In this document: piece after piece, positions 17,769 to 41,836 of the stretch
Layout of the letters: each line of letters opens with the position of its first letter
Numbering within the stretch: the first letter of the stretch is position 1
Source: Sphingomonadales bacterium
GTDB taxonomy: Bacteria > Pseudomonadota > Alphaproteobacteria > Sphingomonadales > Sphingomonadaceae
DNA: 42,371 nucleotides
Direction: 5' to 3'
Assembly: GCA_017309275.1 (NCBI GenBank)
Contig: JAFKLT010000076.1
Coordinates: 1 to 42,371 of the forward strand
Notes under the pieces: model-generated
The model's input: the letters and a program-made list of their open reading frames with translations, nothing else
Databases searched by the model: none
Told to the model about the DNA's origin: nothing
Position numbers and translations under genes: made by a program

Positions 17769-17799
17769 CCGCGACATACTATGTTGCTGCACCGCGACA
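17769..17799. promoter_or_regulatory. Direct repeats upstream of the TonB receptor
   Basis: CCGCGACA occurs at 17769-17776 and again at 17792-17799, 23 bases apart, about two turns of the helix. They lie 183-213 bases before the receptor start codon in a fairly AT-rich 265-base gap. They are a candidate regulator site; no regulator is known. Confidence 0.3.
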
Positions 17800-17851
17800 T
17801 TTGAGAAATTTTGTTTCAGGAGAAACGAATTCTCCAAGGAGGCAAAACCCC

Positions 17852-40643: not shown

Positions 40644-41105
40644 ATGACCGATATCCGCAGCGAGGTGCCGCTGGCCGATTTCCGCGTGCAGGAACGCGTG
40701 CGCGTGCGTTTCAACGAGATCGACGGCCAGAATATCGTCTTCAACGGCAATTATCTCGTTTATGCCGACATTGGCGTGACCGAATATTTCCGCGCGCTCG
40801 GCGAAGGGCAGCCCGGCCCCTATTTTCACCAATATGGTACAGACATTCGCGAGACGCATTGCGAAATCGACTATCATGCGCCCGCGCGCCTGGACGAGCT
40901 GATCACGATCGCGGCGCGAATCAGTCGATTCGGGCGGACCAGCTTTACGCTTCACTGCGGAATTTTCCGCGATTCGGAGCGGCTTACCGATATCGAGATC
41001 AGCTACGCCCATATCGACAGCGATAGCGGCCAGCCCACATCCCTGCCCGGCAGCTTTATCGCCGAAGTGCGTCGTTTCGAATCCCGGACGCCCGCGCAGG
41101 ACTGA
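40644..41105 (+). CDS. Hotdog-fold acyl-CoA thioesterase (4HBT/YbgC-like)
   Basis: A 153-residue thioesterase that hydrolyses acyl-CoA or acyl-carrier thioesters. The motif VRFNEIDGQNIVFNGNYLVY contains the catalytic Asp (EIDGQ), and HCEIDYHAPARLDELI and RTSFTLHCGIF follow, as in YbgC-type proteins. The C-terminal 20 residues are polar. It lies eight bases behind pepP, so they probably share a transcript. Confidence 0.87.
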   Translation: MTDIRSEVPLADFRVQERVRVRFNEIDGQNIVFNGNYLVYADIGVTEYFRALGEGQPGPYFHQYGTDIRETHCEIDYHAPARLDELITIAARISRFGRTSFTLHCGIFRDSERLTDIEISYAHIDSDSGQPTSLPGSFIAEVRRFESRTPAQD

Positions 41106-41146
41106 GTCGCTTTTTTCCGAATCGACCCTCTCAACCGAAACAGTCG

Positions 41147-41210
41147 AAAAAAAAGGGCCACCCGAAGGTGGCCCGTGAAAGTTTTGGGAGAGGATGCCTA
41201 AAAGGCAAGT
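41147..41210 (-). ncRNA. Small RNA of the suhB/mmgR (alpha-r8) type
   Basis: A leftward RNA of about 64 nucleotides with no coding role. Read 5'-3' on the minus strand it begins near ACTTGCC, forms hairpin 1 (TGCCT-TTT-AGGCA), then a single-stranded region with CCTCTCCC, complementary to a Shine-Dalgarno sequence, then AAAACTTTCAC, then the terminator GGGCCACC-TTCG-GGTGGCCC and eight T residues. The order hairpin, anti-SD loop, terminator is that of the Hfq-associated suhB/mmgR RNAs of alphaproteobacteria, which include a regulator described in Sphingopyxis and one tied to polyhydroxybutyrate in Sinorhizobium. A promoter lies just upstream. Identity rests on architecture; exact ends are not known. 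Confidence 0.7.
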
Positions 41211-41213
41211 GTG

Positions 41214-41278
41214 ATATTGCACTGCACAATGAATGTTGCAACTGCGAAATGAGCATCTGCTATTGCATTTTTTGCAAT
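41214..41278 (-). promoter_or_regulatory. Promoter and TGCA-motif cluster of the small RNA
   Basis: On the minus strand TTGCAA (41241-41236), 16 bases, CAATAT (41219-41214), the right distance from the RNA start. Around it TGCA occurs again and again: TGCA-C-TGCA at 41218-41226, TTGCAA at 41236-41241, and the inverted repeat ATTGCA-TTTTT-TGCAAT at 41262-41278. In Sinorhizobium mmgR is repressed by AniA, the PhaR homologue, and PhaR-type proteins bind TGC/GCA-rich dyads, so these are likely regulator sites. Confidence 0.55.
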
Positions 41279-41365: not shown

Positions 41366-41836
41366 ATGGGAATGTTCAACAAGATTGATGTGACGGGCGG
41401 CTTCAGCGATTTCTGGGGCTATATCCGCGAACCGCGCCCGCATCGCTGGGCGATCTGGGGCGTGGCGATCGCGCTGACCTGGCTCGTTTTTCACGGCGTA
41501 TCGGAATATCTGATCCCTTATGAGAAGCCGAAGGCGCGGATCATCTATTTCGAAAATTGGAAGGCGACGCGCAGCGAAGCCGAGGTGCGGGCCGAGTGGG
41601 TCGCCCGCGCGAAGGAAACGACGCTCCGCAACGCCGAAAAGCGCGCCGAGTACCAGCGCCTCGCCAAGAGCCTGGGGGTCGAATATGATTCGACCGAGGC
41701 CGACAAGGTAACGCGCGAGACGCTGGGCGACGAAGCCGCCGCGGCCGCTGGCAAGAAGCCCGAGCCGCCGAAGACGCCGCGCTCGACGCTGGCCGAGCGT
41801 GCGGCGCGCGGTCCCGCCGGTCCGACCCAGCCCTGA
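41366..41836 (+). CDS. Single-span membrane protein, function unknown
   Basis: A 156-residue protein. Residues 28-46 (WAIWGVAIALTWLVFHGV) form one membrane helix after an amphipathic N-terminus. The C-terminal two thirds are charged and helical (KATRSEAEVRAEWVARAKE), with a Pro/Lys-rich tail. No family recognised. The start is ATG at 41366 (a second at 41372). It overlaps ribD by one base (TGATG), so it is the first gene of a unit with riboflavin synthesis, which gives no clear hint of function. Confidence 0.8.
   Translation: MGMFNKIDVTGGFSDFWGYIREPRPHRWAIWGVAIALTWLVFHGVSEYLIPYEKPKARIIYFENWKATRSEAEVRAEWVARAKETTLRNAEKRAEYQRLAKSLGVEYDSTEADKVTRETLGDEAAAAAGKKPEPPKTPRSTLAERAARGPAGPTQP

Follow-up and report, generated by a model that had tools for sequence, protein, structure and literature searches.

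The question raised by this locus is how carbon stored in PHB granules could act on SuhB, a small RNA (sRNA) whose original study, in Sphingopyxis granuli TFA, was reportedly that of Garcia-Romero et al. (2018). In the available text of a review of tetralin degradation (PMC6563040), SuhB of S. granuli is described as a 61-nt, Hfq-dependent sRNA that takes part in catabolite repression, binds the 5′ UTR of thnR and lowers its translation in an Hfq-dependent manner. PHB granules raise SuhB, and both this text and the legend of its Figure 4 mark the way in which they do so as unknown.

We analyzed a stretch of 42,371 nt from a Sphingomonadales bacterium (contig JAFKLT010000076.1), hereafter the window. 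The initial annotation had placed a trans-acting sRNA of the suhB/mmgR type in the gap before a membrane protein gene; this idea was right, but the Sphingopyxis member is already published, as the available text of the review indicates (PMC6563040). Judged from its sequence, the locus is the Sphingopyxis SuhB sRNA, of the known Rfam suhB/MmgR kind, and is not a discovery. What is new here is a predicted PhaR operator in the suhB promoter, which the initial annotation missed. The SuhB sRNA itself is ordinary among alphaproteobacteria; the predicted operator would be a concrete answer to how PHB granules raise suhB, keeping catabolic genes off. The features of the locus are collected in Table 1.

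Table 1. Features of the suhB locus, in window coordinates
Feature	Position	Strand	Basis
suhB family match (RF00519, model 1-77)	41140..41213	-	covariance model, 55.3 bits
Predicted mature sRNA, 61 nt	41147..41207	-	from T-run to ~7 nt past the -10-like element; TFA SuhB also 61 nt
5′ hairpin UGCCU-UUU-AGGCA	41195..41207	-	minimum-energy and centroid fold
Seed CCUCUCCC, unpaired, anti-Shine-Dalgarno	41186..41193	-	fold; CUCUCC invariant in 50 aligned sequences
Intrinsic terminator: 8-bp stem, UUCG loop, T8	41147..41174	-	terminator scan; pair counts in 50 sequences
Putative -10-like element CAATAT	41214..41219	-	sequence and conservation; absent from consensus scan
Putative -35-like element TTGCAA, within conserved TTCGCANTTGC block	41236..41241	-	conservation
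Predicted PhaR operator core TGCAGTGCA (21-base site 41212-41232), between -35 and -10	41218..41226	-	PhaR matrix, conservation
Box A, dyad ATTGCA-N5-TGCAAT	41262..41278	-	conservation upstream of suhB

Identity and structure of the sRNA

The Rfam suhB covariance model was run over the window, as the initial annotation had proposed. It matched the minus strand over its full length at 55.3 bits, above the gathering threshold of 41 (E 7.9e-09 in the window search), and the assignment to the suhB/mmgR family is thus borne out. This is the only Rfam match in the window above a gathering score, and the only suhB match in the whole genome of the organism (5.1 Mb, 121 contigs). Matches to Ysr49, ncS025, sbrA, ncS54, mir-320 and isrD at 41111-41277 were rejected, since all of them are under gathering and overlap the suhB match. 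An identity with AbcR (alpha-r15) was rejected as well, because of its length and its numbers of stem-loops and seeds, which are given in the comparison at the end.

Structure prediction and a terminator scan confirmed the architecture that had been read from the minus strand, namely a hairpin, an unpaired stretch, a perfect 8-bp stem with a four-base loop, and eight T residues. The terminator stem GGGCCACC/GGUGGCCC and its UUCG loop occupy 41174-41155, followed by T8 at 41154-41147. The fold of 70 nt comprises two stem-loops and one seed, and its energy of -23.9 kcal/mol compares with a shuffle mean of -12.76 (z -5.33; 0/200 shuffles as good). Among 50 aligned Sphingomonadaceae sequences, the CUCUCC of the seed is invariant, and double changes occur at six of the eight pairs of the terminator stem. 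The number of stem cells with double changes is 46, compared to a shuffle mean of 16.4, and none of 500 shuffles is as high; the covariation score of the terminator is likewise reached by 0/500 shuffles. The count of six double-change pairs as such is not unusual (89/500 shuffles reach it), and the further pair types in the terminator are matched by 32/500 shuffles. The first hairpin is nearly invariant and therefore tells little about its own pairing.

All parts of the Rfam suhB plan are present: a hairpin, a single-stranded CU-rich seed and an intrinsic terminator. The exact alpha-r8 10-mer UUUCCUCCCU was not found; the window has AUCCUCUCCC at this position, so that we file the RNA as Rfam suhB and call its seed a sphingomonad variant. 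The view that this is the sphingomonad member of the family gains support from its distribution: of the 118 genomes in the order sample, 110 have a suhB match (94 above gathering), as do 58 of the 60 in the genus sample (57 above gathering). The adjoining genes (40644-41105, 41366-41836 and 41836 onward) all lie on the plus strand, in agreement with the earlier remark that no leftward protein gene could use the terminator. In 52 of the 55 main-lineage copies of the genus, suhB is followed by a gene for a 4HBT acyl-CoA thioesterase; this holds for none of the 12 second copies.

A predicted PhaR operator in the suhB promoter

The initial annotation had suggested a plausible promoter. A consensus sigma-70 scan listed none for suhB on the minus strand; the promoter proposed here is read instead from conservation among relatives, where the TTCGCANTTGC block at -35 is held by 54 of 55 primary copies and 9 of 12 second copies of the genus. 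The 61-nt RNA would then start about 7 nt past the -10-like CAATAT, at 41207, and run to 41147.

In Sinorhizobium meliloti, the homologue mmgR is repressed by PhaR/AniA, whose binding to a YGCRNYGCR palindrome of the mmgR promoter was seen in gel shifts; once PHB has accumulated, PhaR is sequestered by it (available parts of PMC12542648). The suhB promoter contains this palindrome, as TGCAGTGCA at 41226-41218. We also built a PhaR matrix from 16 S. meliloti sites in those rows rated efficient in the table available from the same paper (PMC12542648), the mmgR site included, and left out the four sites of exoH and the reverse-strand duplicate of rpoE8. The best position of this matrix in the whole window is 41212-41232, with 23.04 bits, and the runner-up scores 19.09 bits. 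In 100 windows simulated with a first-order model, the mean maximum was 12.45 bits and the highest 21.22, i.e., 0/100 reach 23.04. Weaker PhaR-like positions were also seen at 903-923 (16.62 bits), overlapping the start of an MFS-type gene that runs left from 913, and at 17782-17802 (17.65 bits), upstream of a TonB receptor gene that runs left from 17688.

The genome itself encodes PhaR, with 109.3 bits for PF07879 and 150.8 bits for the TIGR01848 equivalog model (cut-off 109.45). A search of this genome with TTGTGCANTGCACAA, allowing at most two mismatches, gave 10 sites, and the reversed pattern gave 0. Two of the 10 stand on either side of the -35-like region at the only phasin match, another about 80 nt ahead of the probable start of the PHB depolymerase gene phaZ (TIGR01849, 540.6 bits), one stands directly before etfB, and one is that of suhB. 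The motif is thus found at the phasin and PHB depolymerase promoters of the same genome, as expected of a PhaR regulon. The remaining five sites are at genes without a clear PHB link: near a resolvase gene, before a gene for a Gcw_chp outer-membrane protein, inside a KAS III-like frame, within another open frame (contig C31) and before a PspC-domain gene. All 21 genus genomes searched contain PhaR-like sites, 3 to 12 of them compared to 0 to 3 for the reversed pattern; these counts leave out suhB sites of the TGCGCTGCAATA type, as the genus-wide pattern tolerates no more than two mismatches.

Upstream of the predicted operator lies a further dyad, box A, centered about 63 nt before the predicted suhB start, a common position for an activator. 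It was found in all 55 primary copies of the genus and in 5/5 hits of the divergent genus genomes described below, as well as in 24 of 35 hits of other Sphingomonadaceae; it occurs in none of the 12 second copies and in none of 70 hits of other families. Judged by these counts, box A is spread more widely through the family than the PhaR core. The exact motif occurs twice in the organism's own genome, the other copy being inside a transporter-like frame. Another regulator probably acts on suhB too, given the presence of box A; the Fur/Mur and CRP/FNR types were considered. The text consulted on Caulobacter Fur gave no letters for its motif, and a literature search for the literal box A motif returned no paper. 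NtrC, described as an activator of mmgR in the available text of PMC7143759, is another candidate.

Conservation of the predicted operator and alternative readings

The operator survey covered 177 suhB hits, i.e., 72 from the genus, 35 from other Sphingomonadaceae and 70 from other families. Three hits above gathering (G069:C3, G078:C240 and G154:C5) were left out, hits below gathering were partly included, and two of the 12 second copies of the genus are under the gathering score. In all 55 main-lineage primary copies of the genus, the operator core lies 12-13 nt upstream of the suhB model start; it is present in 0/12 second copies. The background rate of the core is 30 of 23,832 positions in upstream flanks. 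Four divergent genus genomes (G088, G116, G132 and G156), in which the core is missing from 5/5 suhB hits, were set apart after this lack had been seen, and counting them, the operator is found in 55 of the 59 genus genomes having a suhB hit. The two of these that were checked, G088 and G116, have phaR. The neighboring 156-aa protein, used as a query, returned 31 loci (25 titled Sphingopyxis, best identity 85%), which makes Sphingopyxis the probable genus of the organism. The suhB core was found in the flanks of 28 of them, all 28 with the operator core, and in none of the flanks of the remaining 3; these 28 loci overlap the survey genomes and are not independent of them.

Outside the genus, the core lies at 12-14 nt in 13 of the 35 hits of other Sphingomonadaceae and is missing from 22, and the rhizobial PhaR matrix scores at least 15 bits near the start in 6 of the 35. 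No core was found in the 70 hits of other families, 43 of which are in genomes with phaR. Since phaR is present in each of the 35 Sphingomonadaceae genomes sampled from the order, its loss does not account for the missing core. We had asked, as our own check of generality and not as a published requirement, whether the operator stands wherever phaR does; phaR presence fails as a predictor, with the core missing in many phaR-bearing genomes. The predicted PhaR-suhB link is lineage-specific. It would be compatible both with common descent with the rhizobial PhaR-mmgR link and with two origins; since the wiring is found on primary copies and is absent from second copies and from the 70 hits of other families, it may have arisen apart from the rhizobial one.

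The second copies (12 genus loci: L163-L165, L167-L169, L171-L173 and L175-L177) have neither box A nor the PhaR core. That nine of them hold the -35 block yet miss both dyads suggests that they are under separate control.

The dyad between -35 and -10 can be read in other ways. SuhB could be real and the dyad could belong to the core promoter itself, or be bound by a different regulator that recognizes TGCA-type dyads. We consider this rather unlikely, even though the dyad shares bases with the -10-like element, box A resembles it in being a TGCA-type dyad without a known protein, and the core does not track phaR across the order. The second copies are informative in this respect: with the -35 block in 9/12 and the core in 0/12, they indicate that the promoter does not need the core. 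In addition, the same motif stands at the phasin and PHB depolymerase genes, and the dyad is the top match in the window of a matrix derived from PhaR sites. The gene at 41366-41836 starts about 135 bases away on the opposite strand, and the dyad might serve this divergent gene rather than suhB; this is very improbable, as the core sits between the -35 and -10 elements of suhB and keeps its fixed distance from the suhB model start in 55/55 main-lineage copies.

We give hardly any credence to the view that no RNA is made, the hairpin with its T-run being a terminator or a structure formed by chance. It can draw on the consensus scan, which lists no promoter. Against it stand the full-length covariance match, the seed invariant in 50 relatives and the conserved promoter blocks; moreover, dRNA-seq and Northern evidence is reported for Sphingopyxis SuhB in the available text of PMC6563040.

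Candidate targets, proposed circuit and comparison with known systems

The initial annotation had expected targets among mRNAs with GGGAGAGG-type ribosome-binding sites, and this fits the sequence data. The organism's own genome has 15 sites of the pattern GGGAGAGGA-N2-10-ATG and none of its reverse; for a motif of ribosome sites, reversal is a weak control. At ten of these sites a frame of at least 116 aa follows, each with a Pfam domain. The ten frames encode three TonB receptors, an MFS transporter, an SDR, an AMP-binding ligase, proteins of the DUF3237, DUF4747 and GFA families, and a phage tail sheath protein. The other five are at short or unlikely frames. With 99 plug-domain matches in the genome, i.e., about 2% of genes if some 4,900 genes are assumed, three TonB receptors at 15 start sites exceed expectation; this excess was spotted in hindsight, and the gene number is an assumption. 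Two more matches (L227 and L233) are followed, after a few hundred bases, by TonB receptor plugs and were rejected because the frame of the receptor differs from that of the ATG; the count of TonB receptors is therefore three, not five. The tail sheath gene (L222, contig C32, near 13927) is of the non-contractile phage type, which may point to a prophage or the remnant of a phage at that place.

Good duplexes with the seed belong to genes that were chosen for seed complementarity and thus prove nothing alone. Direct repression of the phasin mRNA by the seed was rejected, with a duplex of -9.0 kcal/mol compared to a shuffle mean of -9.2. The etfB gene (L186:1500-1555, contig C77) combines its PhaR-like site with a GAGAGGAG leader, which forms a seed duplex of -15.2 kcal/mol (0.010 of shuffles as good), and the variant of its PhaR site recurs across several genus genomes; etfB might be under the control of both PhaR and SuhB. 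An Hfq gene is present in the genome. Its product (L236:1480-1980, contig C20) is a 166-aa protein with two tandem Hfq domains.

The whole explanation that we favor, and consider probable, is that SuhB is an sRNA repressed by PhaR and relieved by PHB, which acts with Hfq as an anti-Shine-Dalgarno repressor. PhaR on the dyad between -35 and -10 would hold suhB transcription down, as suggested by the operator, its position and two published systems. When PHB granules form, PhaR would be sequestered, and SuhB would rise when carbon is plentiful; this lifting of PhaR repression by PHB is the likely link because PhaR directly represses the homologue mmgR in Sinorhizobium. Together with Hfq, SuhB would pair its seed CCUCUCCC with GGGAGAGG-type ribosome-binding sites and repress the translation of selected mRNAs, and raised SuhB would shut off the uptake and breakdown of secondary carbon sources. 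The suhB promoter, its 5′ end, its binding by PhaR and the targets are all predictions in this scheme.

For Sphingopyxis and some related genera, the odds seem even to us that PHB and PhaR gate SuhB and that TonB-dependent uptake and secondary catabolism are turned off in this way. If true, this gating would be the missing step from PHB to catabolite repression, and one switch would serve stored carbon, outer-membrane uptake and the degradation of tetralin and similar pollutants. The literature searched, mostly outside subscription journals, did not describe an action of PhaR on suhB in sphingomonads, which is weak evidence of absence.

The locus shares with SuhB of S. granuli TFA the probable genus, the family name and the length of 61 nt, and TFA contributes the links to Hfq, catabolite repression and PHB; this likeness is taken from the description in the review. 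MmgR of S. meliloti, a 77-nt, Hfq-dependent sRNA activated by NtrC (available parts of PMC7143759 and PMC12542648), is a relative in RF00519 with a PhaR/AniA-type site close upstream of its start and a link to PHB, and differs in its length and its seed variant. Repression of phasin has been suggested for MmgR in the source text available, whereas pairing gives no support for it in the genome studied here. SisA-D of Caulobacter crescentus are relatives within the family, their CU-rich seed being preceded by a weak hairpin, and SisA pairs by its seed at leaders and represses TonB receptors (PMC12559287). In the available text of that paper, no upstream motif common to SisA-D is reported; the Caulobacter seed is UUUCCUCCCU, and SisA lies beside an FGase gene, in contrast to the 4HBT thioesterase gene here. 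Finally, AbcR1/2 (alpha-r15) share CU-rich anti-Shine-Dalgarno seeds and a partial similarity to suhB, according to the accessible text of PMC7143759; they measure 114-120 nt and form three stem-loops, with two CU seeds, whereas the RNA of this locus has about 61 nt, two stem-loops and a single seed.
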